Under the pieces are notes generated by a model that was not told the DNA's origin, made no database searches, and saw nothing but the letters and a program-made list of their open reading frames with translations. A program made the translations under genes and the position numbers. Below, in pieces: positions 7,937-35,958 of a DNA stretch of 64,000 nt. Origin of the DNA: Prevotellaceae bacterium MN60. GTDB lineage: Bacteria; Bacteroidota; Bacteroidia; Bacteroidales; Bacteroidaceae. The stretch lies in contig FZQZ01000008.1 of NCBI GenBank assembly GCA_900199555.1, forward strand, positions 1-64,000, in the 5' to 3' direction. Each line of letters starts with the position of its first letter. Positions within the stretch are counted from its first letter, which is position 1.

Positions 7937-8009
7937 TACGTTGAACGTTGAACGATGAACATTGAACATTCGAAAACCATTGACCATTAAGCATTAAGAA
8001 TTAAGCATT
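7937..8009. repeat. Heptad repeats between HU-like and smalltalk genes
   Basis: The spacer is largely GTTGAAC, ATTGAAC and ACCATTG heptads and related hexamers (GCATTAA). It resembles the arrays found inside men genes. Confidence 0.55.
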
Positions 8010-8111: not shown

Positions 8112-8145
8112 ACATTGACCATTGACCATTGAACATTGAACATTG
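8105..8145. repeat. Heptad repeats at the smalltalk stop codon
   Basis: GTTGAAC, ATTGACC, ATTGACC, ATTGAAC, ATTGAAC units in tandem, starting at the smalltalk stop. Confidence 0.65.
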
Positions 8146-19439: not shown

Positions 19440-19468
19440 TTTACTTTTCTCTCGTTTTTCTTGTTAGC

Positions 19469-19515
19469 ACCCGTTCCCGACGGTGTCCTCGTTCCCGCTG
19501 TTTCTACAGCGGGTC
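19469..19515. repeat. Intergenic palindromic element (same family as the trp inserts)
   Basis: Two CGTTCCCG units and the hairpin CCCGCTG-TTTCTA-CAGCGGG (19494-19513) lie between tsaC and the ClC gene. The same hairpin sequence is found in trpE at 28324-28343. Confidence 0.8.
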
Positions 19516-19516
19516 T

Positions 19517-20113
19517 TTAGCTTCTGATAATGGTTACCTCGCCATCTTCACGCAGGCGGATGATGCAGCTGGGCTGATGAGGTTGATGCTCCTGACGACG
19601 CGACCAGCATACATAATCTACTGCCTCTAACAGCTCTGGAGCAATATCGCAATAGTTCTGAGCAGCAGGCTGACCACTGATATTAGCAGAGGTAGAGACT
19701 AAGGCCTTCTGAAAGCGATAGCACAACTCCTTAGAGAATGGCTCCTGAGTGATACGCAGAGCGATAGAACCATCTTCGGCGATGAGGTTGGGTGCCAGGT
19801 TGATGGCGCCATCGAGAATCAGGGTGGTAGGCTTTGTTCTCGATGGTTCTCCATCGGGTCCCTGTAGGCTATCAATCAACTGCCAAGCCACATCGGGCAC
19901 ATTGCGCACATAGCGCTGCATACGAGCATCGCTATCTACCAAACAAATCAGCGCCTTAGAATCGTCGCGCTGCTTAATCTCATATACTCTCTTTACAGCC
20001 TCAGCATTGGTAGCATCACAACCGATGCCCCAAACGGTATCTGTAGGATAGAGTATCACTCCACCCTTGCGCAGTACTTCTACTGCATTCTTAATATCTT
20101 GCTCTCTAGTCAT
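19517..20113 (-). CDS. tsaC: L-threonylcarbamoyladenylate synthase
   Basis: The 198-aa YrdC/Sua5 domain carries GGVILYPTDTVWGIGCDATN (residues 15-35), KALICLV, TTLILDG and SIALRITQEP, with SANISGQPA near residue 145. It makes threonylcarbamoyl-AMP, used for the t6A37 modification of tRNA. It overlaps the prfC stop codon by one base (TAATG), so translation is coupled. Confidence 0.92.
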   Translation of the reverse strand: MTREQDIKNAVEVLRKGGVILYPTDTVWGIGCDATNAEAVKRVYEIKQRDDSKALICLVDSDARMQRYVRNVPDVAWQLIDSLQGPDGEPSRTKPTTLILDGAINLAPNLIAEDGSIALRITQEPFSKELCYRFQKALVSTSANISGQPAAQNYCDIAPELLEAVDYVCWSRRQEHQPHQPSCIIRLREDGEVTIIRS

Positions 20114-21702: not shown

Positions 21703-21705
21703 TCT

Positions 21706-22566
21706 TTATTTTTCATTCATTAATTTCTCAATACACTCACGCAACGACTCCTCCCAATAGGGCACCTCCATCTGATAGGTCTGCTTGATTTTTGTCTTAT
21801 CGAGCACACTATAATGCGGACGATTGGCAGGAGTGGGATATTCTGCTGTATGCAACGGACGTACATGACAGGTGGTAATGCCTGCCAAGCGATGGATAGC
21901 CTTGGTAAAGTCGTACCAAGAGATAACACCCTCGTTGGAGAAATGATATACACCAGGCACTACACCCTTGTTGATAGCAGTAAAGATGGCTGCTGCCAAA
22001 TCACGCGCATAGGTAGGTGTACCAATCTGGTCGAAGATAACACCCAGCTCGGGCTTCTCTTGTCCCAGACGAATCATCGTCTTCACAAAGTTGTTGCCAA
22101 AGGTAGAGTACAGCCATGCCGTACGGATAATCATCGACTGCTTGCAGAGCTTCTGCACGTTCAACTCGCCCACAAGCTTGGTCTTGCCATAGACACTATT
22201 AGGACACGTATCGTCATCCTCTACATAGGGCGTATGCTGCGTACCATCAAACACGTAGTCGGTAGAAATCTGTATCATCCATCCGCCACGCTTCTCGATA
22301 GCAGCAGCGAGATAAGCAGGAGCAATAGAATTGAGGACAGAACAAAACTCCTCGTTGTCTTCTGCCTTATCCACTGCGGTATAAGCAGCACAGTTCACGA
22401 TGCCATCAATCTCATGGCTAGCCACAAACTGCTCTATCGCTTCCTGATTGGTGATGTCAAGTTCGGCAACATCGGTATTAAAATAGGTATGCTGGGAATT
22501 CTCCTTCTCCAGCAATTGCATCTCATTACCCAACTGGCCATTACAGCCCGTTACTAATATATTCAT
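21706..22566 (-). CDS. rfbD: dTDP-4-dehydrorhamnose reductase
   Basis: An SDR-family enzyme of 286 aa with the NAD(P)-binding TGCNGQLG at residues 7-14, the STDYVFDG motif, and catalytic Tyr-Lys in SVYGKTKLVGE. It performs the last step of dTDP-L-rhamnose synthesis for surface polysaccharides. Its start overlaps the stop of the DUF4924 gene by 4 bases. rfbA, rfbB and rfbC are not nearby. Confidence 0.93.
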   Translation of the reverse strand: MNILVTGCNGQLGNEMQLLEKENSQHTYFNTDVAELDITNQEAIEQFVASHEIDGIVNCAAYTAVDKAEDNEEFCSVLNSIAPAYLAAAIEKRGGWMIQISTDYVFDGTQHTPYVEDDDTCPNSVYGKTKLVGELNVQKLCKQSMIIRTAWLYSTFGNNFVKTMIRLGQEKPELGVIFDQIGTPTYARDLAAAIFTAINKGVVPGVYHFSNEGVISWYDFTKAIHRLAGITTCHVRPLHTAEYPTPANRPHYSVLDKTKIKQTYQMEVPYWEESLRECIEKLMNEK

Positions 22567-23114
22567 TCTTCGTCGAATTTTAATCCTTCTTCCTTGTCTT
22601 TCTTATAGTAATCAGACAGCATACCCAAGAAAGTGGTCATCTCCTTTACAGCATGTTGCGTATTAGGAGTCACCTCCTTTTTCTGCAAACGCAGCAACAT
22701 GGTGCCATAGAGCGCGTTAAAGCAGGTCTCCACCTCATTCTCCTCTTTGTTGGCGCCATGATTGCGCAACTCTACGATATAGGGCAGCACCTTATAATAT
22801 TCTGCATTATAGAAGGGGAACTTAGTAGATGAGAGCAACTGAGCATGAAGCTCTATCAGCTGTTGCATCACCACCTTGTTGATTTGAAGATGTCCCTGCT
22901 CGCGGCATCCCTCCGAATTCATCATACGAATAAGGTTGCCAAACCAGTCGGCCTCCTCCTCTTTCTGTTCGTCACTATAATCAAAACGGTCAATATATTC
23001 CCTACGGATGCGACTGATAGAACAGTCGAAAGCACGTATGGTATCCTCCACCTGCCACATATACAACAGGTATTCGGCAATATTGGTCTTACGTAATTCT
23101 TGAGCTATAAACAC
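22563..23114 (-). CDS. DUF4924 family protein, 183 aa
   Basis: A soluble, alpha-helical protein with the DUF4924 pattern (FIAQELRKTNIAEYLLYMWQVEDTIRA at the N-terminus, a conserved EADWF segment). The family is found in Bacteroidetes and has no known function. It is translationally coupled to rfbD and 42 bases after the LysE-type gene. Confidence 0.8.
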   Translation of the reverse strand: MFIAQELRKTNIAEYLLYMWQVEDTIRAFDCSISRIRREYIDRFDYSDEQKEEEADWFGNLIRMMNSEGCREQGHLQINKVVMQQLIELHAQLLSSTKFPFYNAEYYKVLPYIVELRNHGANKEENEVETCFNALYGTMLLRLQKKEVTPNTQHAVKEMTTFLGMLSDYYKKDKEEGLKFDEE

Positions 23115-23156
23115 CTTATTAACTTACTATTTAACGATTTACAATTCTACAACCTA

Positions 23157-23822
23157 TCAAAAGAAGCGATACAAATTTGTAACGGTGCCAAAGAGATAGA
23201 TGCCCGAGAAGATAATCACCACGGCACCTATAATCTGGTTGATAAGACGAATGCCATTATCATTGAAGATGGTTCTTACCTTATCTACCAGCCATGTCAG
23301 TCCATACCACCATATCAGTGCACCACCCACAATACTGGCAAAGCCAATAATCATCTCAAAAGGACGATCGGGGATGACAAAGGCGAACTGAGCAAAAAGA
23401 CCCATAAACAGGAAAACAATCAGCGGATTAGAGAAGGTAACAAGGAACGCTGTCCACATGTTATACCAATAAGTACCACGCTGCTGTCCTGACTTATGCA
23501 TATTCCTCGTGGGGTCGCATCGCCATGTATACACGCCGAATATCAGCAACATCACGCTACCGATAATCTGCAAATAGAACTTATTCTGGTCGTTGTTGAT
23601 AAAGTCCATCACAAAGGCCATACCAAAGCCAGTAATACCAGCATAGATAATGTCACTAAGGGCTGCACCCATGCCAGTTACCAAGCCAAACAAGCGCCCT
23701 TTGTTCAGCGTACGCTGTACACAGAGCACTCCCACAGGCCCCATTGGTGCAGAGGCTACCATGCCTATCAGCATGCCCTTAAACACCAAATCTACTATAT
23801 TAATATGTATAGGAAACACCAT
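23157..23822 (-). CDS. LysE/RhtB-type amino-acid exporter
   Basis: Six predicted membrane helices over 221 aa, and the family motif GMVASAPMGPVGVLCVQRTLNKGR near the N-terminus. It exports amino acids or related compounds; the substrate cannot be told. The start at 23822 is chosen because a TACCTTTG -7-like box (23831-23838, minus) lies inside the longer reading frame. Confidence 0.85.
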   Translation of the reverse strand: MVFPIHINIVDLVFKGMLIGMVASAPMGPVGVLCVQRTLNKGRLFGLVTGMGAALSDIIYAGITGFGMAFVMDFINNDQNKFYLQIIGSVMLLIFGVYTWRCDPTRNMHKSGQQRGTYWYNMWTAFLVTFSNPLIVFLFMGLFAQFAFVIPDRPFEMIIGFASIVGGALIWWYGLTWLVDKVRTIFNDNGIRLINQIIGAVVIIFSGIYLFGTVTNLYRFF

Positions 23823-23963
23823 ATCGCCGACAAAGGTACAACTTTTTAAGCAGTTAAGAAACATAAAGATGTTAAAGGGAGTTAAAATGAAGAGGTTGTG
23901 TTCAGAAATGAGTAACTTTGCACCGTATTCAAGAGAAACAATAAAAAATCACATTATAGCACT

Positions 23964-24947
23964 ATGACTGAGCAGCAAGGAATTAAGCCATATGTTATTG
24001 GCTTAGACTTAGGTGGCACCAATGCCGTATTCGGCATTGTAGACCAGCGTGGAGACATCAAAGCAACCACAGCCATCAAAACACAACAATACGATACAGC
24101 CGAAGCATTTATTGAAGCATCTGTCTGCGCACTTCAGCCTATCATCGAACAGGTGGGAGGCATGGAGAAGATTAAGGCGATGGGTATCGGTGCGCCCAAT
24201 GGCAACTACTATAAAGGTACCATTGAGATTGCTCCTAACATCAAGTGGGCTCACAATTGCGTAGTGCCTATCGCACAGATGTTTAGCGAGAAGCTGGAAG
24301 GTATTCCTGTTGCTGTTACCAACGATGCTAACGCTGCTGCCATTGGCGAAATGGTATATGGTGTAGCTCGTGGCATGAAAAACTTTATTGTGATTACTCT
24401 TGGTACTGGTGTAGGTTCTGGTATAGTAGCCAATGGTCAGCTCATCTATGGCTGCGACGGTTTTGCTGGAGAATTAGGTCATATCACCATGGTACGTGGT
24501 GAGGAAGGTCGCCTCTGTGGTTGTGGTCGCAAGGGCTGTCTGGAGACTTACTGCTCTGCCACAGGTGTTGCCCGTACAGCACGCGAGATGTTGGCCAAGA
24601 GCAATCGCCCCTCACTGCTTCGCGAAATCAATCCCGAAGATATCACATCGCTGGACGTATCTATCGCTGCTGGCAAGGGTGACGAACTCGCCAAGGAAAT
24701 CTACGAATTCACGGGTCACATGCTGGGTGAGGCTTGTGCCGACTTTGCTACCTTCTGCTCTCCTGAAGCATTCATCTTCTTCGGTGGTATGGCAAAAGCT
24801 GGTGAACTGATATTTGACCCCATCAGAAAAGCATACGACGAACACGTAATGCCCGTATATAAGGGTAAAGCACAGTTCCTGGTAAGTGGACTGGATGGCG
24901 CTTCGGCAGCAGTTCTTGGTGCCTCTGCCATCGGTTGGGAAGTATAA
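23964..24947 (+). CDS. ROK-family glucokinase
   Basis: All ROK kinase features are intact in 327 aa: the phosphate motif DLGGTNAVFGIVD (residues 15-27), catalytic Asp in TNDANAAA, the adenosine motif TLGTGVGSG, GELGH, and the zinc motif CGCGRKGCLE. It phosphorylates glucose and related hexoses with ATP and resembles RokA of Bacteroides. A TAACTTTG box (23913-23920) lies upstream. Two related but degenerate ROK genes occur at 58-60 kb. Confidence 0.93.
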   Translation: MTEQQGIKPYVIGLDLGGTNAVFGIVDQRGDIKATTAIKTQQYDTAEAFIEASVCALQPIIEQVGGMEKIKAMGIGAPNGNYYKGTIEIAPNIKWAHNCVVPIAQMFSEKLEGIPVAVTNDANAAAIGEMVYGVARGMKNFIVITLGTGVGSGIVANGQLIYGCDGFAGELGHITMVRGEEGRLCGCGRKGCLETYCSATGVARTAREMLAKSNRPSLLREINPEDITSLDVSIAAGKGDELAKEIYEFTGHMLGEACADFATFCSPEAFIFFGGMAKAGELIFDPIRKAYDEHVMPVYKGKAQFLVSGLDGASAAVLGASAIGWEV

Positions 24948-24962
24948 CATAGGTATCAAAAA

Positions 24963-24990
24963 GAGGTTGGTGCAGGACGCTACCAACCTC
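24963..24990. terminator. Hairpin after the glucokinase gene
   Basis: Perfect 9-base stem GAGGTTGGT / ACCAACCTC with a 10-base loop. There is no T-run on the plus side (five T follow on the minus strand), so termination is only possible. Confidence 0.35.
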
Positions 24991-25072
24991 AACCTATGAA
25001 GTATGATAAGTGACGTCGACAATAGCCAACGTAAGGCTTATCGGGGGCAAATTTAGAAATTATTCAGATAAA

Positions 25073-25981
25073 ATGCAAATTTTTCGGCTCTTTTTTTCGT
25101 TTTTTCTTCTTTTAGTCTTCACCAGTTGTGAGAAAGAAATAACCAGCGAAAAGGGCGAGAAAGGGCTTTCTACAGAGCTTACCGACGATATCAAGCGGCA
25201 AGCTATCACCGTAGAACAAGCCATCGACATAGACCAAGGTTACACAGTCATCGTAAAGGGATATATCGTTGCTGCAGCAGAAAGTAGCATTAAGAATGCA
25301 GATTTTCGCAAGCCCTTTGCAGGAAAGACCGCTATCCTCATATCCGACGATAAATCCGAGGCCAGTAACGATCAGTATTTCTATAATCTGATGCCTATCT
25401 CATTGTCTGGCACCTTAAAAGACCGTTTCAATCTTCAGGAGAATCCTGACATGTGGAATGCTTTTGTCTATATTCAGGGCCTTCGTACAAACTATATGAA
25501 TACTGCTGGCATCAAAGAGGTCAAGAACATCTGGGTAGATGCCAACCACGATCCCAATGATGACAACATAGAGCCCAATCCTAATCCTGACGACGATGAC
25601 GATCCCACCATTGATGATGGAGGAAACAATGGCGATTGGCTAACAGTGGCGCAAGCTATTGCAGCGCCAACAGAACAAGTTATCAAGGTGGCAGGATATG
25701 TTGTGGCTACTACCTCAAAAAGCATGAACAACATCAAGTTTGAGGATATCCACGAGAACTATACCGCCCTCGTATTGGCAGACGATGTCAACACCACAGA
25801 GAGGGAGAAATTATTCCCTGTAGGTGTAAGCAAAGAGATACGCGATGAAATCGCTGCCTATGGTGCGGGACTCAAGAATCTGCGTGTGGTGGTATTGGGT
25901 AATAAGGATACCTATCTCGGACAACCAGGAATCAAAAAGGCAGTGTCCGTCGTTATCGTTCCGACAGCAAATCAGCAATAA
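25073..25981 (+). CDS. DUF6359-type lipoprotein, two repeated domains
   Basis: The start at 25073 gives a signal peptide with lipobox FTSC. The mature protein has two copies of a beta-rich domain (about residues 42-150: ITVEQAI..., VIVKGYIVAA; and about 195-300: LTVAQAIAAPTEQVIKVAGYVVATTSKS), joined by a linker very rich in Asp, Asn and Pro. This matches the DUF6359 family of Bacteroidetes surface lipoproteins. Function unknown. It ends just upstream of the trp promoter. Confidence 0.75.
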   Translation: MQIFRLFFSFFLLLVFTSCEKEITSEKGEKGLSTELTDDIKRQAITVEQAIDIDQGYTVIVKGYIVAAAESSIKNADFRKPFAGKTAILISDDKSEASNDQYFYNLMPISLSGTLKDRFNLQENPDMWNAFVYIQGLRTNYMNTAGIKEVKNIWVDANHDPNDDNIEPNPNPDDDDDPTIDDGGNNGDWLTVAQAIAAPTEQVIKVAGYVVATTSKSMNNIKFEDIHENYTALVLADDVNTTEREKLFPVGVSKEIRDEIAAYGAGLKNLRVVVLGNKDTYLGQPGIKKAVSVVIVPTANQQ

Positions 25982-26014
25982 TTCTATCAAAATATTAAAA
26001 TAATTGCAGAAAAA

Positions 26015-26046
26015 TTTGCAGAATAGAAGAATTATGCTTACTTTTG
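26015..26046 (+). promoter_or_regulatory. trp operon promoter
   Basis: TTTG (26015-26018), a 20-base gap and TACTTTTG (26039-26046) match the Bacteroidetes consensus. Transcription should start near 26053, about 20 bases before the leader peptide. Confidence 0.8.
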
Positions 26047-26071
26047 CCGACGAAAATAAAAACAAAGCTAG

Positions 26072-26125
26072 ATGAAGCATTCAATGAACAATACTTGGTG
26101 GTGGCGTAACTCGAGATTAATTTAG
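26072..26125 (+). CDS. trpL: trp leader peptide, 17 aa with three consecutive Trp codons
   Basis: An ATG-initiated frame reading MKHSMNNTWWWRNSRLI ends in TAG at 26123-26125. Codons 9-11 (26096-26104) are TGG-TGG-TGG. Trp is the rarest residue, so three in a row in a 17-residue peptide between the trp promoter and trpB is the hallmark of ribosome-mediated attenuation. When charged tRNA-Trp is scarce the ribosome stalls here and favours the antiterminator described in the next entry. Confidence 0.9.
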   Translation: MKHSMNNTWWWRNSRLI

Positions 26126-26210
26126 TCGCGAGGTACGAAGCCGTATAGTATCATTTGATTGAATGAAAGAGGCTCGTCGTTAACGCGACGGGCCTCTTTT
26201 CTTTTTCCAC
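26110..26210 (+). promoter_or_regulatory. trp attenuator (antiterminator and terminator)
   Basis: The terminator stem is GAGGCTCGTCG / CGACGGGCCTC (26169-26179 and 26186-26196), followed by TTTTCTTTTT. Competing pairs are GTCGCG (26125-26130) with CGCGAC (26184-26189), and AGCC (26139-26142) with GGCT (26171-26174). These nest and use both terminator arms. A third pairing, CTCG (26110-26113) with CGAG (26129-26132), would block the antiterminator and is just beyond the Trp codons, so a stalled ribosome would release it. The pairings are read from the sequence; function is inferred. Confidence 0.85.
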
Positions 26211-26237
26211 AGAACAGAAAACAAAAACAACAAAGAT

Positions 26238-27440
26238 ATGAGTTATTTAGTAGACGAAAAAGGATTTTACGGAGAATTTGGTGGAGCATACGTTCCAGAG
26301 ATTCTCTATGCCACAGTAAAAAACCTGCAAGAGCAGTATCTTCCCATCATTGAGTCGGACGAGTTTCAGCGTGAATACATGCAACTGCTGCGCGACTATG
26401 TTGGTCGCCCCTCTCCCCTCTATTATGCCAAGCGCATGAGCGAGAAGTACGGTTGCCAGTTGTACTTGAAGCGTGAAGACCTGAATCATACGGGTGCACA
26501 CAAAATCAACAACACCATCGGTCAGATTCTCTTAGCCAAGAAGATGGGCAAGAAGCGCATCATTGCTGAGACGGGTGCAGGACAGCATGGTGTAGCCACT
26601 GCTACTGTGTGTGCATTGATGGATATGCCTTGTGTGGTTTATCAGGGAGCGCTCGACGTAGAGCGACAGCATGTCAATGTAGAACGCATGAAGATGCTGG
26701 GGGCAGAGGTTCGCCCTGTTAAGACGGGCAATTGGACACTGAAAGATGCCACCAACGAGGCCATCCGCGACTGGTGTTGTCATCCCAGCGACACGTTCTA
26801 TATCATCGGCAGCACCGTAGGTCCTCACCCCTACCCCGACATGGTGGCTCGCCTGCAGAGTATCATCTCTAAGGAAATCAAAGAACAGCTGCAAGAGAAG
26901 ATTGGTCGCGACTATCCCGACGTATTGATGGCATGCGTAGGTGGAGGCAGCAATGCCGCTGGCACCATCTATCACTATATCGACGATGAGCGCGTAAAGA
27001 TTATCTTGGCTGAAGCTGGCGGACAGGGTGCCGACACCGGACATACGGCTGCTACCATCCATGCTGGCAGACTGGGTATTCTGCATGGTGCCAAGACACT
27101 GGTGATGCAGACTCCCGATGGACAGATTATTGAGGCAGAAAGCATCTCAGCAGGTCTCGACTACCCTGGCATCGGTCCTATGCACGCCAATCTGGCCAGT
27201 CAGCATCGCGCCACGGTTTATAGCATCAACGACGACGAGGCTGTACGCGCTGCCTACGAGCTGACACGCATGGAGGGTATCATTCCCGCTTTGGAGTCGG
27301 CCCACGCTATTGCCGCCTTATCTAAGGTACAGTTCAAGCCCGACGATGTCGTAGTACTGACGGTTAGTGGTCGTGGCGACAAGGATGTAGAGACCTATCT
27401 TAACAACAAACACATGGCAGGAGAATATGGAAACTTTTAA
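26238..27440 (+). CDS. trpB: Tryptophan synthase beta subunit
   Basis: A 400-aa PLP enzyme with the PLP lysine Lys89 in HTGAHKINN, the catalytic Glu in AETGAGQHG (residues 110-118) and the phosphate-binding GGGSN (235-239). It condenses indole with serine to give tryptophan. It is the first structural gene of trpBEGDCFA, the order usual for Bacteroidetes, and overlaps trpE by 14 bases. Confidence 0.98.
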   Translation: MSYLVDEKGFYGEFGGAYVPEILYATVKNLQEQYLPIIESDEFQREYMQLLRDYVGRPSPLYYAKRMSEKYGCQLYLKREDLNHTGAHKINNTIGQILLAKKMGKKRIIAETGAGQHGVATATVCALMDMPCVVYQGALDVERQHVNVERMKMLGAEVRPVKTGNWTLKDATNEAIRDWCCHPSDTFYIIGSTVGPHPYPDMVARLQSIISKEIKEQLQEKIGRDYPDVLMACVGGGSNAAGTIYHYIDDERVKIILAEAGGQGADTGHTAATIHAGRLGILHGAKTLVMQTPDGQIIEAESISAGLDYPGIGPMHANLASQHRATVYSINDDEAVRAAYELTRMEGIIPALESAHAIAALSKVQFKPDDVVVLTVSGRGDKDVETYLNNKHMAGEYGNF

Positions 27441-28920
27441 TTATACAACAACAAGCCAGACGATACTGGCCGACCTCTATACACCCGTGGGTGTCTATAT
27501 GCGACTGCGCGATCTCTATCCGCAGAGTGCACTGATGGAGAGTAGCGACTATCATGATGCTAGCAACTCTCGTTCGTTTATCGGCATCCACCCCATGGCT
27601 AGCGTAGCTATCAGCCACGGCATTGCCTCAATCACCTTCCCCGATGGCACTATCGAGCGCAAGCCCTTATCTGCTGATTTCGGTTCTGCCGAAGCCATCC
27701 ACACCCTCATCGACCGCCTCCATGTCACGGGCGACGATGCCAAGGCATGTGGTCTCTATGGCTATACCTCGTTCAATGCTGTGCGCTATTTCGAGAATAT
27801 TCCCGTCAAAGACGAGACACAAGCCAAGAACGATGCTCCCGATATCCTTTACATCATGTATCAGGTTGTTATCGTCTTCGACCATCACAACAATCAGCTC
27901 AAAGTGGTTAGTCTCTCTGGTGAGCAGGAGATTGCCGAGGTTCTCAAGGCGATGAACCGTGGCAATATCCAGCCATACGACTTCCACCCTGTGGGTGAGG
28001 TAACCTCTCCACTGACCGACGAAGAGCATAAGGCGAATATCCGTCGAGGCATCCAACACTGTCTGCGTGGCGATGTCTTCCAGATTGTGCTCTCACGAAG
28101 ATTTATCCAGAAGTATGAGGGCGACGACTTCAAGCTCTATCGTGCCCTGCGCAGCATCAATCCTTCGCCCTATCTGTTCTACTTCGACTTCGGTGGCTTC
28201 CGCATCTTCGGCTCTTCTCCCGAGACCCACTGCCGCATCGAAGCTGCCACCGTTCCCGATGCTTTCACATCGGGTTCGCCTGTGGCGAAGGCCGCTGCCC
28301 CCGTTCCCGATGCTGCCACCGTTCCCGCTGTTTCTACAGCGGGCTCCTTCCGCGCCTATATCGACCCCATCGCTGGTACTACCAAGCGCACGGGTGATGC
28401 CGAGGCCGACCGCAAGGGTGCAGAGTATCTGCGTAACGATCCCAAAGAGAATGCGGAGCATGTGATGCTGGTAGATTTGGCACGCAACGACCTCAGCCGC
28501 AACTGTCATGGCGTAAAGGTGGACTTCTACAAGGACCTGCAGTATTATTCTCACGTTATCCACCTCGTATCTCGCGTTAGTGGAGAGTTGGATAAGGGTG
28601 CCGACCCTATCAAGGCCTTTATCGACACCTTCCCTGCTGGCACACTGAGTGGTGCGCCCAAGGTACGTGCCATGCAACTCATCTCTGAATACGAGCCACA
28701 CAACCGTGGCGCCTATGGTGGTTGTATCGGTGTCATCGGACTTGATGGCAGTCTGAATCAGGCCATCACCATCCGCACCTTTGTCTCTCGCAATGGCGAG
28801 CTGTGGTTCCAGGCGGGTGGCGGCATCGTAGCCAAGAGTGATGAAGACTACGAGTTGCAAGAGGTAAACAACAAACTGGGTGCTCTCCGCAAGGCCATCC
28901 AATTAGCAGAAACGTATTAA
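27427..28920 (+). CDS. trpE: Anthranilate synthase component I, with in-frame repeat insert
   Basis: A chorismate-utilising enzyme. GDVFQIVLSRRF, YLFYFDFGGFRIFGSSPETH, PIAGTTKRTGD, HVMLVDLARNDLSR and GTLSGAPKVRAM are present. With TrpG it converts chorismate and glutamine to anthranilate. At 497 aa it is longer than its relatives because of an insert of about 36 residues (about 272-307) between SPETHCRIE and the PIAGT motif, encoded by palindromic repeats. The frame is open and the catalytic motifs are intact, so the enzyme is probably active. Feedback by tryptophan is usual for the family. Confidence 0.97.
   Translation: METFNYTTTSQTILADLYTPVGVYMRLRDLYPQSALMESSDYHDASNSRSFIGIHPMASVAISHGIASITFPDGTIERKPLSADFGSAEAIHTLIDRLHVTGDDAKACGLYGYTSFNAVRYFENIPVKDETQAKNDAPDILYIMYQVVIVFDHHNNQLKVVSLSGEQEIAEVLKAMNRGNIQPYDFHPVGEVTSPLTDEEHKANIRRGIQHCLRGDVFQIVLSRRFIQKYEGDDFKLYRALRSINPSPYLFYFDFGGFRIFGSSPETHCRIEAATVPDAFTSGSPVAKAAAPVPDAATVPAVSTAGSFRAYIDPIAGTTKRTGDAEADRKGAEYLRNDPKENAEHVMLVDLARNDLSRNCHGVKVDFYKDLQYYSHVIHLVSRVSGELDKGADPIKAFIDTFPAGTLSGAPKVRAMQLISEYEPHNRGAYGGCIGVIGLDGSLNQAITIRTFVSRNGELWFQAGGGIVAKSDEDYELQEVNNKLGALRKAIQLAETY
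28241..28350 (+). repeat. Palindromic elements inserted in trpE
   Basis: Contains hairpin CCCGATG-CTTTCA-CATCGGG (28255-28274), a second hairpin TTCGCC-TGT-GGCGAA just after it, a partial unit, and hairpin CCCGCTG-TTTCTA-CAGCGGG (28324-28343). All in frame, read as TVPDAFTSGSPVAKAA and TVPAVSTAGS. Confidence 0.9.
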
Positions 28921-28934
28921 GACCCTTTAGCCCT

Positions 28935-29498
28935 ATGAAAATAGTTATTATCGACAATTACGACTCATTCACTTATAACCTGAGTCATCTGGTCAAGGAG
29001 ATGGGTGCCGACGTCACGGTATTCCGCAACGACCAGTTTAGTCTCGATAGTCTCGAGGCTTTCGATAAAATCATCCTCTCCCCTGGTCCTGGCATCCCTT
29101 CCGAGGCTGGATTGCTATTGGATGTCATCCGTACCTATGCAGGCAAGAAGCCAATGCTCGGTGTTTGCTTAGGTCATCAGGCTATCGGCGAGGCTTTTGG
29201 TGGACGGTTAGAGAATCTCAGCGACGTCTTCCATGGCATTGCCACCCCCTGTCATATCACGGCAGATAGTCCACTCTTCCAAAGACTGTCTAAGAATATC
29301 ACCATCGGTCGCTACCACTCATGGGTAGTATCACGCGAGGCCTTCCCCGAATGTCTGGAGATCACCGCCGTATCTGACGAAGGACAGGTAATGGCCTTGC
29401 AACACCGCCAGTTGCCCATCTACGGCATCCAGTTCCACCCCGAGAGCGTACTAACACCTGAAGGTAAAAATATAATAAAAAACTATATCGACTTATGA
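28935..29498 (+). CDS. trpG: Anthranilate synthase glutamine amidotransferase
   Basis: A class I amidotransferase of 187 aa with the triad Cys78 (GVCLGHQ), His168 and Glu170 (FHPES) and an oxyanion-type SPGPGIP segment (49-55). It supplies ammonia to TrpE. It starts 14 bases after trpE and overlaps trpD by 4 bases. No palindromic insert is found in it. Confidence 0.97.
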   Translation: MKIVIIDNYDSFTYNLSHLVKEMGADVTVFRNDQFSLDSLEAFDKIILSPGPGIPSEAGLLLDVIRTYAGKKPMLGVCLGHQAIGEAFGGRLENLSDVFHGIATPCHITADSPLFQRLSKNITIGRYHSWVVSREAFPECLEITAVSDEGQVMALQHRQLPIYGIQFHPESVLTPEGKNIIKNYIDL

Positions 29499-30553
29499 AA
29501 GAGATTTTAGCAAAGCTTCTCAACCACGAGGAACTCTCTCGTGAAGAGATGAAAAACATTCTAGTGGGCATCACCCATAGCGAGTATCCCAACGAGCAGA
29601 TCACTGCCCTGCTCACAGCACTGCAGATGCGTGGCGTCAGTGTTGACGAACTATTAGGTTTCCGCGATGGCATTCTGGAGACGGGTGTTCCAGTACCTCT
29701 GGATTGCGATCGATATATCGACGTGGTGGGTACTGGTGGCGACCGTAAAAATACCTTTAACATCTCTACCACTTCCTGCTTTGTTATCGCTGGTGCAGGT
29801 TATAAGGTAGCCAAACATGGCAACTATGCAGCGACCTCCACAAGTGGTGCATCAAATGTGATTGCACAGCATGGTGTAAAGTTCACTGACGACCTCTGCC
29901 AGCTGAACCGCTGTCTGGACGAGTGCGGCATTGTTTATCTGCATGCCCAGCTCTTTGCCAAGGCCATGAAGTTTGTTGGTCCCATCCGCAAGGCACTGCC
30001 CTTTCCCACCATCTTCAATCTGCTCGGTCCGTTGGTCAATCCCAGCCAGCCCAGTTGTCAGCTCCTTGGTGTAGCCAATCTCGACCAGATGCGCCTCTAC
30101 CATCAGGTATATCAGCGCCTCGGCATCGACTACGGTATCGTCAACTCTATCGATGGTTACGACGAGATTTCGCTTACGGGTGATTTCAAGGTAACCGTCG
30201 GAATAGGCTCCACCACCGTTCCCGCTGGTGCCACCGTTCCCGCTGTTTTTACAGCGGGTTCCTCCTATGAGCGTATCTTCAAGCCCGGCGACCTAGGCTT
30301 TGCTGTTGCCAAACCTGAAGAGTTGGTTGCCGGTGCTACCGAGGCCGAGGCAAAGGAAATATTCGACAGTGTATTGGAAAATCGTGCTTTGCCTGCCCAG
30401 AAGAATATCGTCTTGGCCAATGCAGCCTTCGGCATTCAAGTATTAGAGAAGGGAGAGAAGAGCATCGAAGAGTGCATCGACATCGCTCGCCAGAGCATTG
30501 ATAGCGGTGCTGCCTTGCGCACATTCAAGAAATTCGTAGAGTTAAATTCGTAG
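29495..30553 (+). CDS. trpD: Anthranilate phosphoribosyltransferase, with in-frame repeat insert
   Basis: Has the GTGGDRKNTFNISTTS PRPP-binding segment, KHGNYAATSTSGASNV and the LGPLVNPSQPS motif. It transfers phosphoribose to anthranilate. About 20 residues (238-257, TTVPAGATVPAVFTAGSS) are extra compared with the family and are encoded by palindromic repeat units; they lie before the FKPGDLGF segment. The 3' end runs into a 14-base tandem repeat that supplies the last residues and the stop. Confidence 0.97.
   Translation: MKEILAKLLNHEELSREEMKNILVGITHSEYPNEQITALLTALQMRGVSVDELLGFRDGILETGVPVPLDCDRYIDVVGTGGDRKNTFNISTTSCFVIAGAGYKVAKHGNYAATSTSGASNVIAQHGVKFTDDLCQLNRCLDECGIVYLHAQLFAKAMKFVGPIRKALPFPTIFNLLGPLVNPSQPSCQLLGVANLDQMRLYHQVYQRLGIDYGIVNSIDGYDEISLTGDFKVTVGIGSTTVPAGATVPAVFTAGSSYERIFKPGDLGFAVAKPEELVAGATEAEAKEIFDSVLENRALPAQKNIVLANAAFGIQVLEKGEKSIEECIDIARQSIDSGAALRTFKKFVELNS
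30208..30266 (+). repeat. Palindromic element inserted in trpD
   Basis: Two CCGTTCCCGCTG units and the hairpin CCCGCTG-TTTTTA-CAGCGGG (30239-30258), read in frame. Confidence 0.88.
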
Positions 30554-30567
30554 AGTTAAATTCGTAG
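30533..30567. repeat. 14-base tandem repeat at the trpD stop
   Basis: The unit TTCGTAGAGTTAAA occurs twice and begins a third time. It encodes the end of TrpD (FVELNS and stop) and fills the spacer to trpC. Confidence 0.8.
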
Positions 30568-30578
30568 ATGATAAACTC

Positions 30579-31412
30579 ATGAGCGATATCCTACAAGAAA
30601 TAGTAGCCCACAAGCGCTTAGAGGTGGAACACTTCAAGCAGCAACTCAGCGAGCAGGAGATACACCGCCGTGTAGAGCCGTTGCTCGACTTCAGTGTGGC
30701 TTCCATGTCGCAGGCCCTGGCCACCTCACCCAGCGGTATCATTGCCGAGTTCAAGCGCAAGTCGCCCTCCAAGGGGTGGATCAAGGAAGAGGGGCGCCCC
30801 GACATTATCCCCCTCAGCTACCAGCAGCATGGTGCTGCAGCTCTGAGCATTCTCACCGACGAGAAGTACTTCGGTGGTCAGGATGCCTTCATCAGTATGG
30901 CACGCCATAGTGGTGTAAAGATTCCCATCCTCTACAAGAACTTCGTCATCGACGAATACCAACTATTCCAGGCAAGACTATGTGGAGCCTCGGCAGTACT
31001 ATTGATTGCTGCCGACCTTACTCTGTCTGCCTGCAAATCGCTGCTTCACACCGCCCACGAACTGGGCATGGAGGTACTCCTCGAGATGCATAGCGAAGCT
31101 GAACTCGACTATGCCGCCCTCGGCCCCGATATGTATGGTATCAACAACCGCAACCTCGGCTCATTCGTGACAGATGTAGAAAACAGCTTCCGCTTAGCCG
31201 AAGCTCTCCGCTCTGCCGCAGTCCCCGTTCCCGACGGTTTTCCGTCGGGTAGTTATCCCCTCCTTGTCAGCGAGAGCGGCATCAGCCATCCCGACACCGT
31301 GCATGCACTGCGCGAGGCAGGCTTCCGTGGTTTCCTTATCGGTGAGACCTTCATGAAGACGGCCCACCCAGGACAAGCGCTCAGCGATTTCATCACCCAG
31401 TTAGCCCATTAG
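30579..31412 (+). CDS. trpC: Indole-3-glycerol phosphate synthase, with in-frame repeat insert
   Basis: A TIM-barrel enzyme of 277 aa: IIAEFKRKSPSKGWI (catalytic Lys), LTDEKYFGG, PILYKNFVIDEYQ, MYGINNRNLGSF and VSESGIS. It closes the indole ring. A short insert (about residues 213-225, VPVPDGFPSGSYP) comes from a palindromic element placed before the LLVSESGIS strand. Confidence 0.96.
   Translation: MSDILQEIVAHKRLEVEHFKQQLSEQEIHRRVEPLLDFSVASMSQALATSPSGIIAEFKRKSPSKGWIKEEGRPDIIPLSYQQHGAAALSILTDEKYFGGQDAFISMARHSGVKIPILYKNFVIDEYQLFQARLCGASAVLLIAADLTLSACKSLLHTAHELGMEVLLEMHSEAELDYAALGPDMYGINNRNLGSFVTDVENSFRLAEALRSAAVPVPDGFPSGSYPLLVSESGISHPDTVHALREAGFRGFLIGETFMKTAHPGQALSDFITQLAH
31215..31255 (+). 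repeat. Palindromic element inserted in trpC
   Basis: Hairpin CCCGACGG-TTTT-CCGTCGGG (31230-31249), preceded by the CCCCGTT leader shared with other copies. Confidence 0.85.
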
Positions 31413-31416
31413 CCCT

Positions 31417-32253
31417 ATGAAACCCATCATCAAAGTATGTGGCATGCGCGACGCCGACAACATTCGTGCCGTAGAGGCCTTAGGAGCTGACTGGATGGGC
31501 TTTATCTTCTGGCCGGGTAGCAAGCGCTATGTAGCAGAGCCACCCACCTATCTGCCTCTCAAGGCTAAGCGTGTAGGTGTGTTTGTGGATGCCACCATCA
31601 ACGACATCCTTCAGCACGTGGCAGGCTATCGCCTCGATGCTATCCAACTCCACGGCAACGAGAGTCCCGACTTCCTGCGCGCCCTGCGCACAGCCCTGCA
31701 TGCGCCCCATGACTCATGCTCCTGTCCGGTATGCAGCGGGCGTACAGCCCTCGCCTCCCACCATGCTTCGCATGTGGCCGGCGGTTCTCCCGCCTACATC
31801 TGCCTCATCAAGGCCTTCTCCATCGCCACACCCCGCGACCTTGCTGCCACCGAAGCCTATGCCGGCCTTGCCGACTACTTCCTCTTCGATACCAAGGCAG
31901 CCCCCGTTCCCGATGCTTTTACATCGGGTTCGCCTATGGCGAAGGCTGCTCCCGTTCCCGACGGTTCTCCGTCGGGTTCCCCTGTGGCGAAGGTCGCTGC
32001 CCCCTCCCTCCCTGGCGGCACGGGCTGCCAGTTTGATTGGAGCATCCTTAGCGCCTATCATGGCAACACGCCCTTCCTGCTCAGCGGTGGCATAGGTGCC
32101 AACGATGCCCAGCGCCTTCGCGCCCTTCGTGCGCTCGACGGATTCCCCATCGAACAATGCGTCGGCATCGACCTCAACTCTCGCTTCGAGGTGGCGCCAG
32201 CCCTCAAAGACATCAACAAACTCAAAGAATTCATTAAAGAACTAAGCATATGA
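31417..32253 (+). CDS. trpF: Phosphoribosylanthranilate isomerase, with two large in-frame inserts
   Basis: The usual TrpF is about 205-215 aa; this one is 278. It keeps KVCGMRDADNI (catalytic Cys), GFIFWPGSKRYV, DAIQLHGNES, FDTK (catalytic Asp), PGGTG and LSGGIGANDA. Insert 1 (about residues 95-128, Cys/His/Ser-rich) lies before IKAFSI. Insert 2 (about 161-197, VPDAFTSGSP repeated) lies between DTKA and PGGTG, next to the active site. All reading is in frame. It starts 4 bases after trpC and overlaps trpA by 4. Confidence 0.95.
   Translation: MKPIIKVCGMRDADNIRAVEALGADWMGFIFWPGSKRYVAEPPTYLPLKAKRVGVFVDATINDILQHVAGYRLDAIQLHGNESPDFLRALRTALHAPHDSCSCPVCSGRTALASHHASHVAGGSPAYICLIKAFSIATPRDLAATEAYAGLADYFLFDTKAAPVPDAFTSGSPMAKAAPVPDGSPSGSPVAKVAAPSLPGGTGCQFDWSILSAYHGNTPFLLSGGIGANDAQRLRALRALDGFPIEQCVGIDLNSRFEVAPALKDINKLKEFIKELSI
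31699..31800 (+). repeat. First palindromic insert in trpF
   Basis: A run of small hairpins: GGGC-GTACA-GCCC, a CCACCATGC/GCATGTGG stem and GGCGG-TTCT-CCCGCC. It is related in style to the other inserts but not the same unit. Confidence 0.6.
31897..32007 (+). repeat. Second palindromic insert in trpF (tandem double unit)
   Basis: Two full units in tandem. The first has CCCGATG-CTTTTA-CATCGGG then TTCGCC-TAT-GGCGAA. The second has CCCGACGG-TTCT-CCGTCGGG then TTCCCC-TGT-GGCGAA. Confidence 0.92.
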
Positions 32254-33026
32254 ACAAGATTAATAGCCTTTTCGCAAACAATAAAGACCAAAAGCTCCTC
32301 AGCCTCTATTTCTGTGCAGGAGCCCCCACTCTTGATGGTACTGCCGATGTTATCCTCACCCTACAAGAGCGAGGCATCAACATGATTGAGGTCGGCATCC
32401 CCTTTAGCGACCCCATGGCCGATGGTCCCGTCATTCAGGACGCCGCCACCACCGCATTAAAGAATGGCATGACGCTGCGAACCCTCTTTGCCCAGCTGAA
32501 AGCCATCAAGGAGCAGGTACACATCCCCTTGGTACTGATGGGCTATCTCAATCCCATCATGCAGTATGGTGTAGAGGCTTTTTGTCAGAGCTGCGTAGAT
32601 AGCGGTGTCAGTGGTGTCATCATCCCCGACCTGCCCTTCGACGATTATCTAAATACCATCAAGCCTGCTGCCGACAAGTACGACCTGCGCATTATCATGC
32701 TCATCACCCCCGAGACGTCCGAGGAGCGTATCCGCTTTATCGACCAGCATACAGACGGCTTTATCTATATGGTTAGCTCTGCCGCCATTACTGGTGCTCA
32801 GAAGTCATTTGATGATGCCAAACAGGAATATTTCCGTCGCATCAACGCCATGAATCTGCGCAATCCTCGCATGATTGGTTTTGGCATCAGCAATCGTCAG
32901 ACACTCGAAGCCGCCCAGCAGAATGCCGCTGGTGCCATCATAGGTTCTAAGTTTGTCACCCTGCTCAGCGAGAGCAAAGATGCCAACGAGGCTCTTGACA
33001 AGCTCTTCCAGGCACTTGAGCAATAA
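32250..33026 (+). CDS. trpA: Tryptophan synthase alpha subunit
   Basis: A TIM-barrel protein of 258 aa with MIEVGIPFSDPMADGPVIQ (catalytic Glu and Asp region), LMGYLNPIMQYG, GVIIPDLPFDDY and the phosphate-binding GFGISNRQT. It releases indole from indole-3-glycerol phosphate for TrpB. It is the last gene of the operon and carries no repeat insert. Confidence 0.97.
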   Translation: MNKINSLFANNKDQKLLSLYFCAGAPTLDGTADVILTLQERGINMIEVGIPFSDPMADGPVIQDAATTALKNGMTLRTLFAQLKAIKEQVHIPLVLMGYLNPIMQYGVEAFCQSCVDSGVSGVIIPDLPFDDYLNTIKPAADKYDLRIIMLITPETSEERIRFIDQHTDGFIYMVSSAAITGAQKSFDDAKQEYFRRINAMNLRNPRMIGFGISNRQTLEAAQQNAAGAIIGSKFVTLLSESKDANEALDKLFQALEQ

Positions 33027-33056
33027 AGGTGCCTAATGTAATACTGTTAAATGAAA

Positions 33057-33082
33057 TCGAGGCGGGCCTAGGCTCGCCTCGA
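33057..33082. terminator. Hairpin after the trp operon
   Basis: A 10-base stem TCGAGGCGGG / CTCGCCTCGA with a CCTAGG loop, 30 bases after trpA. There is no clear T-run, so strength is uncertain. Confidence 0.45.
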
Positions 33083-33102
33083 ATACGTATTACCATTACC
33101 GA

Positions 33103-33267
33103 TTATCTAAACTCGTCTAAGTCGTCCAGACCATCGGCATCAATGTTTAACTTATCCTCATCGGCAAGTCCATTCAGCTCTCCTAACGACAACGTGCTGC
33201 CACATAGCATTTGCAGAATACCTATCTCTATCACCTCTAATGCTGGATTGATATATGTCTTTTTCAT
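33103..33267 (-). CDS. Short Y-x-x-P peptide, 54 aa
   Basis: The frame begins MKKTYINPALEVIEIG and continues QMLCGSTLSLGE to an acidic tail ending DDLDEF R. Similar short peptides, with Tyr-x-x-Pro, an Ile/Glu-rich stretch, Met/Leu-x-Gly-Ser and a Gly/Asp tail, are common in Prevotella and Bacteroides, often next to surface proteins. It lies 15 bases downstream of the adhesin gene on the same strand. The peptide at 39218-39406 has the same layout. Function unknown. Confidence 0.65.
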   Translation of the reverse strand: MKKTYINPALEVIEIGILQMLCGSTLSLGELNGLADEDKLNIDADGLDDLDEFR

Positions 33268-33282
33268 ATCGTTATCCTCCCT

Positions 33283-35958
33283 CTATTTTATCACGATCTT
33301 CTTTCCATTTACGATATATAATCCCTTAGTAGGATTAGCTACCTTACGGCCTTGCAAGTCATAGACGTTGAACGTTGAACGTTGAACATTGAACGTTGAA
33401 TGGTTAATGATTCCAATACCGGTTGTTTCATCGCCAAAGTCTATTACGAACTCACGAGCTGGCGTTGTTGCAGGCGTCTCGAAGTAGCCACGGAAGGCGC
33501 CAAGCGTGCGGTCTGTATTGGCATAGCCCAACTTATTGCTGCCACTCAACAATAACACTTCGTTGCGGTTACTGTCGTCGATAGTCAGTGGAGAGAATGT
33601 TCCTTTGAAGACACCACCACTGAAGTTGACATTATTTTCAGTGGCATCAATGGTAACATCGCAGAATACAGGATTCTTTATATTTGTATCTGCTGCCCAC
33701 TTCACTAGATAAGGCTTGCCTGCCTCAATGGCAGTAGCATTGTCGAAGGTTAAGGTCAGTACTCCGTTAGCAGTCAGATTAGATGCCGTTGCATCCAGCT
33801 CCTTCACTGTAGCGCCCTCCAGCGGTGTCCCCGCAAAGTTATTCACGCCAAACGGCAGGCATAGTGTATTCCACTTGCCATCCTTATAGAGTGTACGACC
33901 AGATAGGGTTACGTCATACGTCATTCCTGCGGCATTGTTGATGGCTGTACTATTGTCTGCATTATCTGCCAGTTCAAGAATTCTTGAAATTCTAAAATCA
34001 TCCAAGTACAGCATATTGCCTTCCTTGCGACAACAGATAATGAGATAATGCGCTGTAGCTGGGAGGGTTGTCTCATAGAGCGTCCATGCTCCGCCATTAG
34101 CATTCACAGCGTTGTCTATCCAAGTGATTGCATCAGTTTTAGTATTGGTGTAGCCCACTGCAAGGATGCCAGGATAGCTTTCATAATTCTGATAATAGAA
34201 CGACACCTTCTTGGGCATACCTCCAGCGAAGTGGGGTGAAATGAGATACTGGTGTTGGTCAGAACGACAGAATTCAAAGCAGCACAAACCACTATGTGAG
34301 CCCCCTCCCAATCCTGTTTTCAGAATTCTCGTCATTCCATCGCAGTCAGCCATGCGCCATCCCCCCATACCATTCTCGAATCCCTCACTATATGGAAGAT
34401 TATCCACACGAGCATCGGTTTGGAAACTATAAGTAGAATAATTGCTAGAATTACTGCCGTAGAGAGCCTTTACACGGAAGCAGTAGTATGTGTTGGGCGT
34501 TAGCTCGCTCAACGTGACGGTATTTGTGTTCAGCATGGTCTCGGCAGACCATGTATTGTCATTCGCCTTCTTATATTGATAGACAAATCCCGTAGCACCG
34601 CTAGGGATATTCCATGCCAATGTCGCCTCTGTTTCGGAAATCTCAGTATAACCTATTGTTGTAGGCTTTGCATAAGAGGAAGGCTTCTCAAAACAGAAAT
34701 CGTCAATGAACATTCTATATTCGTTGGAAGCATATTTGACGGCAAAATAGCGAGCCTCGGCAGGGAAGGTGTGCTCGTACTTTGCCCAGTTGCTAGAGTT
34801 AAATGTTATCGCATCGCCAAACGTAAAGGCATCCTTGTCGTTGGTCGTGGTAGAATAGCCCACATAGATAGTCTCGGCAATGTTGGTGGGAACTCTGTAG
34901 TAGAACGACAGCGTGATTGCTGCGTCGCCGTTAAAGCGAGGAGAAATCAGGTATTGGGGTGTTTCTCGCGAATCATAATTCAACGAGAACTGGAAACCGA
35001 TATTACCGTCATGTGCAGCTTGCATCCTTCTACCTGTACCCCAGATATCACTGACATTTTCAAACTGCTTAATATCGCAATCTACCATCGTCCAGCGCCC
35101 CATACCACTCTCAAAGTTCATATCATAAGGCACTTCCGTAGCAGTGACAAATCGGGTGGTTGTGTAGATACTAGCATCGCTTCCAACGATAGTTTTCAGG
35201 CGTACATCATAGTCTGTATCGGCAGTCAGGTTACTAATAGTCGCAGAAGTTACAGTCGTCATCACCTCGTCAGACCAAATGCTCTCGTTTGCCTTTTTAT
35301 ATTGGAACACATAACCCGTGGCTCCTTCAACAGCATCCCATGTAAGCGTTACGCTCTCTGAGGCAATCGAGCTTGCCGACAGTTGGGCAGGCGGCAATAC
35401 ACCATCCACAAAAATACTAAAGTCATCAATATACAAAAACCTATAGCTGTTAGAGGTATATTTCACTGCAACATACGTAGTGCCCGCAGGGAAAGTATGC
35501 TCATACTTCTTGTAGTCAAATACGGTAGCGGTGACCTCGTCATCCCACGTAAAAGCCGAGGGGTCATTGGTCGATGTAGAATATCCCACCTGAAAAGACT
35601 TTGGATAATCTTTATTATTAATTGCATAATAAAGTGTCACCTTAATCTCCGCAGGGCAGTCAATTCTTGGAGTGATGAGATATTGTGGCCCATTCCCCCA
35701 GAAAGCGAAAGCTTTTGTCTGTTTATAAACATCCCATATTCCAGTATAAGTTTCATCACCACTGAGCACTTGCCAGAATCCTATACCGTTTTCAAAATCC
35801 TCGGTGAATGGCAGCGTCACTGTATGGTCGGTGACATCGTTCGCCGTCAGATTCTCTAGTGGCAGACAGTCAGCCCACGCTACCGTCGGCATTATTAATG
35901 CCATAACTAGCACCATATCAACGCGTAATAAGTTTCGCACAGTAAGTCTTTTTTTCAT
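33283..35958 (-). CDS. Secreted multidomain adhesin-like protein with T9SS-type tail
   Basis: An 891-aa protein with a signal peptide (residues 1-29). Three copies of a beta-sandwich domain of the cleaved-adhesin/choice-of-anchor type (FTEDFENGIGFW, MNFESGMGRW, YSEGFENGMGGW) are linked by fibronectin type III domains (PPAQLSASSIASESVTLTWD, AKPTTIGYTEISETEATLAW). A further C-terminal beta domain precedes the tail VYDLQGRKV...GLYIVNGKKIVIK, typical of T9SS-type sorting domains in Prevotella. It should be cell-surface or secreted. Six heptads are inserted just before the tail. Confidence 0.85.
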   Translation of the reverse strand: MKKRLTVRNLLRVDMVLVMALIMPTVAWADCLPLENLTANDVTDHTVTLPFTEDFENGIGFWQVLSGDETYTGIWDVYKQTKAFAFWGNGPQYLITPRIDCPAEIKVTLYYAINNKDYPKSFQVGYSTSTNDPSAFTWDDEVTATVFDYKKYEHTFPAGTTYVAVKYTSNSYRFLYIDDFSIFVDGVLPPAQLSASSIASESVTLTWDAVEGATGYVFQYKKANESIWSDEVMTTVTSATISNLTADTDYDVRLKTIVGSDASIYTTTRFVTATEVPYDMNFESGMGRWTMVDCDIKQFENVSDIWGTGRRMQAAHDGNIGFQFSLNYDSRETPQYLISPRFNGDAAITLSFYYRVPTNIAETIYVGYSTTTNDKDAFTFGDAITFNSSNWAKYEHTFPAEARYFAVKYASNEYRMFIDDFCFEKPSSYAKPTTIGYTEISETEATLAWNIPSGATGFVYQYKKANDNTWSAETMLNTNTVTLSELTPNTYYCFRVKALYGSNSSNYSTYSFQTDARVDNLPYSEGFENGMGGWRMADCDGMTRILKTGLGGGSHSGLCCFEFCRSDQHQYLISPHFAGGMPKKVSFYYQNYESYPGILAVGYTNTKTDAITWIDNAVNANGGAWTLYETTLPATAHYLIICCRKEGNMLYLDDFRISRILELADNADNSTAINNAAGMTYDVTLSGRTLYKDGKWNTLCLPFGVNNFAGTPLEGATVKELDATASNLTANGVLTLTFDNATAIEAGKPYLVKWAADTNIKNPVFCDVTIDATENNVNFSGGVFKGTFSPLTIDDSNRNEVLLLSGSNKLGYANTDRTLGAFRGYFETPATTPAREFVIDFGDETTGIGIINHSTFNVQRSTFNVYDLQGRKVANPTKGLYIVNGKKIVIK
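33367..33408. repeat. Six heptads inside the adhesin gene
   Basis: Units GTTGAAC (three times), ATTGAAC, GTTGAAT and GGTTAAT, read on the minus strand as NHSTFNVQRSTFNV, exactly between the last beta domain and the sorting tail. 42 bases keep the frame. Confidence 0.85.

Follow-up and report, generated by a model that had tools for sequence, protein, structure and literature searches.

The genes trpE, trpD, trpC and trpF lie on the forward strand of the window, by which we mean the whole 64,000-nt stretch analysed (positions 1 to 64,000 of contig FZQZ01000008.1, Prevotellaceae bacterium MN60), and each contains extra coding segments built from a short hairpin element. An earlier note on this DNA had proposed that palindromic elements were inserted in frame into the four genes and that all frames stayed open. 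The frames are indeed all open and the four enzymes match Pfam families, and insertion is borne out by empty sites in relatives, by borders that fall sharply 30 nt apart in unrelated genes, and by antisense and intergenic copies. Inserted DNA is well supported as the origin of the extra trp segments, and the element is likely to be akin to the repetitive extragenic palindromes (REPs).

The element is a 30-mer with sharp borders, GCCACCGTTCCCG-NNNN-TTCT-NNNN'-CGGGY, in which a 9-nt unpaired tag, GCCACCGTT, precedes an 8-bp hairpin with a T-rich 4-nt loop. R1, a covariance model of the hairpin made from 14 copies, was run unfiltered over the window and yields eight copies with E values of 4.8e-7 or better, the next best match being no better than E 0.7. 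Six are in trp genes (trpE, 2; trpD, 1; trpC, 1; trpF, 2), a seventh lies between genes and the eighth is antisense (Table 1). The intergenic copy had been listed in the earlier note, the antisense copy had not; in addition to complete copies, trpE and trpD each hold a solitary 18-nt left half. A trailing TTCGCC hairpin had been described as often present, and TTCGCC-NNN-GGCGAA does follow three of the six trp copies, twice exactly and once with one base changed. The window has nine occurrences of the motif CCGTTCCCG, all of them on the + strand, where 0.16 would be expected, and this number was reached in 0 of 100 shuffles. Perfect 8-bp hairpins with loops of 3-6 nt number 18 in the window, five of them members of the element family, as against 2-5 in five first-order random sequences.

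Table 1. Element copies, accompanying repeats and trp genes in the window
Feature	Position	Strand	Details
Solitary left half before intergenic copy	19468..19485	+	from alignment with G055
Intergenic complete element, degenerate tag GTCCTC	19485..19514	+	R1 46.2 bits; between open reading frames 17634-19439 and 19517-20113
Antisense element in gene 19517-20113(-), presumably sua5/yrdC-like	19830..19859	+	peptide QGPDGEPSRTKP; R1 38.6 bits; also in G055
trpE gene	27427..28920	+	497 aa; two elements; Pfam Chorismate_bind, Anth_synt_I_N
Complete element, trpE	28246..28275	+	stem CCCGATGC/ACATCGGG, one mismatch; ATVPDAFTSG; R1 45.6 bits; site empty in G055
Second small hairpin TTCGCCTGTGGCGAA behind trpE element	28275..28289	+	exact match
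Solitary 18-nt left half GCCCCCGTTCCCGATGCT, trpE	28297..28314	+	in tandem with next element; R1 only 8.1 bits
Complete element, trpE	28315..28344	+	stem CCCGCTGT/ACAGCGGG; ATVPAVSTAG; R1 48.9 bits
trpD gene	29495..30553	+	352 aa; one element; TIGR01245 over cut-off
Solitary 18-nt left half ACCACCGTTCCCGCTGGT, trpD	30212..30229	+	from sequence
Complete element, trpD	30230..30259	+	ATVPAVFTAG; R1 49.6 bits
trpC gene	30579..31412	+	277 aa; one element; PF00218; NF001377 over cut-off
Complete element, trpC	31221..31250	+	VPVPDGFPSG; R1 45.3 bits
trpF gene	31417..32253	+	278 aa; two elements and one other insert; PF00697
Complete element, trpF	31900..31929	+	APVPDAFTSG; R1 49.2 bits; low-confidence coil in TrpF model
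Second small hairpin TTCGCCTATGGCGAA, trpF	31929..31943	+	exact match
Complete element, trpF	31948..31977	+	APVPDGSPSG; R1 50.4 bits, the genome's best copy
Second small hairpin TTCCCCTGTGGCGAA, trpF	31977..31991	+	imperfect, one base changed

Borders, stem pairing and subtypes

With 91 sense and 39 other copies aligned, the conserved part runs from the GCC at the start to one base past CGGG, and in sense and other copies alike the information content rises abruptly at positions 1 and 30. Among the 130 copies the stem is perfect in 85, has one mismatch in 35 and more in 10, and TTCT is the commonest loop (83/130). It had been remarked earlier that the stems differ while the flanks stay constant. 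This is confirmed, and the stem covaries: over 136 distinct rows both sides have changed in 7 of 8 pairs, the covariation score is 0.353 (0.100 when shuffled, at most 0.105 when slid), and 96.0% of stem cells are paired, compared with 27-50% when slid. That alignment was fitted to the structure; in the alignment of the 14 original copies, made without structure fitting, 4 of 8 pairs have changed on both sides and the score is 0.350, against at most 0.170 when slid. Compensatory change and separate subfamilies had both been offered for the stem diversity. Subfamilies fit better, because 44 of the 85 perfect stems are of one type, CCCGACGG, with a few smaller types besides, and because the metY copies described below decay by different single mismatches.

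That the segments are ordinary fast-evolving protein loops, shaped by codon bias and palindromic by chance, is scarcely credible: although the peptides read as proline- and glycine-rich linkers, and hit L005 may indeed be one, in what we take to be a biotin-carrier-like protein, the idea is refuted for the family as a whole by the stem covariation, the exact borders and the antisense and intergenic copies.

Sites, reading frames and distribution

The relatives of the contig are rumen Prevotellaceae, with G055 as nearest sister genome. The 20-residue TrpD insert is absent in all 30 aligned relatives, and the TrpE, TrpC and TrpF inserts are absent in most of the 29-30 aligned rows (TrpC has 13 extra columns relative to at least 70% of 30 relatives); several relatives have other short extra peptides at the insert places of these three proteins. 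G055 has the element in none of the four genes, and R1 has no match at E 0.1 in 77 of the 80 named trp loci, a number of which are truncated. R1 does match in the trpE region of L021 (antisense) and L030 (sense), where the peptides PDGKPSG and TTPDGSPSG are aligned with the TrpE insertion point of the window, and more weakly elsewhere in the trp locus of L092, while G362 has a copy (L361) at what reads as the window's trpD site. The objection foreseen in the earlier note, that empty sites might be lacking in every relative, fails because relatives are empty at the trp sites. The target duplications it had suggested looking for are absent from element sites at k = 2 to 8.

Outside the trp genes, G000, G007 and G040 have the element in metY, where G055, G050 and G037 lack it; in a dpp4-like gene it is present in G000 but not in G055. 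None of the filled and empty pairs among the sites compared has flanks more than 99% identical. In the metY copies that G007 and G040 share, stem pairing is broken by a single mismatch in each genome, and not by the same one. The loop before YAIGDVNG, in a protein that is presumably dihydrolipoamide-dehydrogenase-like, has elements with ACGG, CTGG and CTGC stems in G000, G123, G114, G289 and G367, and a clpB-like gene of G055 has a different palindrome at the same place. Different hairpins in one loop, together with the metY mismatches, fit repeated landing of copies followed by neutral decay.

For a census of frames, nine short or duplicate entries were removed from 147 R1 matches in 100 loci, and the 138 distinct copies left were called from the codon scores of their flanks alone; 104 are coding, 25 unclear (including the window's trpC copy), and 9 may be intergenic. 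The 96 sense copies are without exception in one frame (ATVPDGSPSG) and all 8 antisense copies in one frame (PDGEPSGT), these being counts of copies rather than of independent events, since several are orthologous at one site, in loci taken from the better matches. In the ACGG and CTGG consensus sequences all six frames are free of stops; the CTGT and ATGC subtypes each have a single stop, in an antisense frame. With a length of 30 nt and no stop in six frames, an inserted copy of the commonest subtype would rarely break a gene. Four of the six frames are unused though most stay open; their peptides would be arginine-rich or hydrophobic, and we infer that protein-level selection removes them, while retaining surface-loop copies in the two turn-peptide frames. 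The orientation bias of 96 to 8 is not explained by frame selection, because the antisense frame too gives a turn-like peptide. As to the surface loops, whose mapping had also been proposed, the one structure model used is that of TrpF (predicted local distance difference test, pLDDT, 83.3), in which eight barrel-like strands are kept and the two inserted stretches are low-confidence coil; together with sequence comparison it suggests that the inserts lie in such loops. The TrpD model was poor (pLDDT 51.4) and was left unused.

The window genome (2.74 Mb) has 22 R1 matches at E 0.01 or better and 24 at E up to 1. At E 0.001, R1 matches are found in 83 of 398 genomes of the genus, the window genome counted, with scoring confined to the 18 best candidates of each genome, which makes the counts minimum figures and means that a zero may sometimes be a miss. 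Among 40 genomes of other families one has a match, a weak one (E 0.02). Positions 18000-34000 of the window have no Rfam match at E 0.1 or better, and a mostly superficial search of the openly available literature found no account of the element in Prevotella.

The number of 18-nt left halves changes between close relatives: G055 has one more than the window at 19468-19514, and a gene that we take to be thiL-like has about two more in G000 than in G055. The left half may duplicate in 18-nt steps. Such changes would also arise if nothing were mobile: slippage and fold-back copying (template switching) would make the hairpins on the spot, in tolerant loops of low complexity, and homologous recombination would carry them with whole gene blocks from species to species. 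The same loops do hold unrelated repeat peptides, the window genome and G055 form a mosaic of tracts of about 70-90% and 95-100% identity, and, with no clean gain found at a site with flanks more than 99% identical, single sites could fit. We nevertheless regard such a local origin as improbable, because fold-back copying would not yield the identical 9-nt tag and exact 30-nt borders that recur in unrelated genes, between genes, in antisense and across the 83 genomes.

A selected RNA or regulatory element, whose hairpin in the mRNA would modulate pausing, mRNA stability or translation in trp and other operons, is more improbable still. Sense copies do make up 96 of the 104 coding ones, the 8-bp hairpin is GC-rich and two hits in G037 resemble intrinsic terminators. 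A maintained RNA function is, however, not favoured because of the decay of the metY copies by different mismatches in G007 and G040, and it agrees poorly with the 77 of 80 trp loci that lack an R1 match, with the 45 of 130 copies that have at least one stem mismatch and with host genes that are functionally unrelated.

A candidate transposase and known systems

The genome of the window has one Y1_Tnp match, above the cut-off; the best name for the gene is NF047646 REP_Tyr_transpos (E 5.4e-10), a REP-associated tyrosine transposase (RAYT), and PDHLH and YLDDNP are present in its translation. Homologues (E 1e-20) occur in 207 of the 398 genomes of the genus. They are present in 74 of the 83 genomes with the element and in 133 of the 315 without it, assuming the same genome set in both surveys, and in 37 of the 39 genomes with at least three element hits.

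The flanks of these genes were tested for the pattern G[CT][CT]AC-N-GT plus a hairpin within 220 nt after the RAYT stop. It is found at 18 of 22 close loci, one miss being at a contig end, at 0 of 28 other loci, in 21 of 1521 control windows and in 1 of 22 upstream flanks. R1 itself matches behind the RAYT gene in G127, G163, G170 and G015. Behind the RAYT gene of the window genome the flank reads as two inverted hairpins with their tags facing, of which the second alone passes the strict test; the tag beside this gene is GCCACTGTT, with a hairpin that has another stem. In distant homologues R1 hits are found inside the gene, between the HUH and Y motifs, at 13 of 18 loci (L406-L410, L413-L425), and inverted pairs at 6 of the 18, loci that were chosen partly for having an insert. 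In the RAYT gene L300 (G040, contig 33), an Ala-Thr-Pro repeat has expanded to great length in the loop that separates the HUH and Y motifs.

We explain the trp inserts, with a probability of about 0.68, as copies of a 30-nt REP-like mobile element that is moved in trans by a RAYT-type Y1 transposase. The RAYT of the genus, a Y1 (HUH tyrosine) transposase, would take up the tagged hairpin in single-stranded form and insert it at sites left without target duplication, and older copies would then decay.

Several observations count against this explanation. The NF047646 score of the Y1 gene is 39.3 bits, below the cut-off of 80. Nine of the 83 element genomes have no RAYT match, including G367 with nine hits, although several of the nine are incomplete. 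The co-occurrence figures carry no correction for phylogeny, come partly from elements inside RAYT genes and may in part result from shared ancestry. The tag pattern was loosened and the close set chosen after the RAYT flanks had been viewed; a close set drawn by a plain 65% identity cut has the tag-hairpin at 18 of 23 loci. The hairpins at the window genome's own RAYT have the tag and layout of the element but not its stem, and R1 has no match beside or in that locus. The GT[AG]G tag that canonical REPs have 0-2 nt 5' of the stem is absent there from the element, which has its own 9-nt tag instead; GTGG is found in it on the other strand only, 3' of the hairpin. REPs move, it is thought, as inverted doublets (REPINs), whereas trp has single copies or left halves in tandem, and the element pairs found here have inward-facing tags. 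Finally, the bias of sense over antisense copies is not predicted by movement through RAYT.

Some of the same facts would suit a selfish palindrome like those of Rickettsia (RPE) or Wolbachia that is mobile by another route, the RAYT genes being mere hosts and the link with them one of shared lineage. The element is inserted in frame in many unrelated genes, the distant RAYT genes carry loop copies (at the 13 of 18 partly selected loci), and the stems in the RAYT flank of the window genome are different. We think this unlikely, as the tag-hairpins of the close loci stand outside the gene, directly behind it, at 18 of 22 loci against 21 of 1521 control windows, and as RPE is described in passages of PMC2229807 as 105-146 bp long. 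The likeness to Rickettsia palindromic elements had been drawn in the earlier note, where REPs and RAYTs were not considered. It stands as an analogy: according to passages of PMC2229807, PMC10969869 and PMC4224334, the Rickettsia and Wolbachia elements are in-frame inserts in conserved proteins, presumed tolerated, as here, but at 105-146 bp (the review gives about 150 bp) they are longer than the 30-nt element, belong to another phylum and, in those passages, have no link with RAYT. The stronger link is with REPs and RAYT.

Passages of PMC6006769, PMC3116915 and PMC3733652 on REP/REPIN-RAYT systems describe what is seen here: short tagged hairpins, subfamilies told apart by alternative complementary stems, copies beside RAYT and in-frame copies in unrelated genes. 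REPs are palindromes of 20-40 bp with an unpaired motif and many copies. The element, at 30 nt, is of this kind, though 22 matches in its own genome are few for a REP; and REPs are mainly extragenic, whereas the element copies that could be called are mostly intragenic. It is not filed as a GTAG REP, because the canonical tag was looked for and not found; we regard it as a REP-like variant whose tag is unusual and which is tolerated inside genes. By the description in passages of PMC6006769, RAYT group 4 (TnpAY1 subclass 2.4), the closest of these systems, has in-frame REPs between HUH and Y, as do the distant loci here, and TnpAY1 subclass 2.6 (RAYT group 5) of the Bacteroidetes, the same phylum, has non-canonical hairpins that flank the transposase and recur genome-wide; the comparison with subclass 2.6 is made at the level of this description. 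The CGTC REPs, including RPE-4, RPE-6 and dRS3, share an 8-bp stem, a 4-nt loop and in-frame intragenic copies with the element and are reported in passages of PMC3733652 to lack a dedicated transposase; the element differs in its tag, no unpaired CGTC being present in its profile outside the stem.

More tentatively, and with the balance tilted against it, the element may represent a REP lineage adapted to intragenic life, a ten-codon unit, stop-free in six frames in its main subtype and coding for neutral turn peptides in the two frames allowed, that RAYT moves into transcribed DNA with a strand preference (96 sense to 8 antisense). If so, a class of bacterial mobile DNA would live in protein loops instead of intergenic space, and the core enzymes of rumen Prevotella would receive a steady supply of new loops. 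Mobile DNA inserted in genes is normally destructive, and this small element is found in many unrelated genes, core enzymes included, where it keeps strictly to its frames and strongly favours one strand. Its copies amount to a natural experiment on insertion tolerance across many enzymes of an abundant gut genus, and they offer a new candidate tag for a RAYT system, the mobility of which is still poorly shown. For annotation they carry a warning, as the element peptides are neither domains nor contaminants.

The trp block and other repeats

Identity between the window and G055 is 60-93% over about 24.65-32.28 kb and 91-100% in the flanks, and the GC content of the trp block (26159-32280) is 53% versus 46%. 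Foreign import of the block was our first reading and was dropped. The clpB-like, metY and dpp4-like genes also differ from G055 by 16-21%, and the closest relative of the window's TrpD is that of G055 (94%), so it may be the similar flanks, rather than the trp block, that were recently exchanged. The stretch 24650-32280 is noted as a recombination tract with no direction assigned.

A further TrpF insert, at about 31714-31800, has small palindromes (CATGCTTCGCATG, GGCGGTTCTCCCGCC) and no R1 match. Arrays of 7-nt units of the TTGAACA / ACCATTG type lie at 7916-8144, 33343-33397, 51347-51416 and 55904-55939, and peptides resembling them (LSPLTSHLSPLTSQ, CSIFNVQCSMLNVQ) occur in loops of relatives' proteins. 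An exact 28-nt palindromic repeat, TAACACGCGGGGACAGTCCCCCTGTGCG, at 2893-2920 and 5156-5183 is perhaps another repeat family. At 7783-7845, AAGCCTCACCCCTAACCCCTCTC is present in two adjoining copies, the second of which runs into a CCCCTCTC/GAGAGGGG hairpin. Elsewhere in the genus, the two terminator-like R1 hits of G037 (L128 and L142) have a CCCGCTGG hairpin, a T run and similar downstream sequence, and L170 of G033 contains, at 7858-8010, an array of GTGCCCGAAGCATCAGCTTCGGG-type hairpins with 42- and 84-nt spacing.

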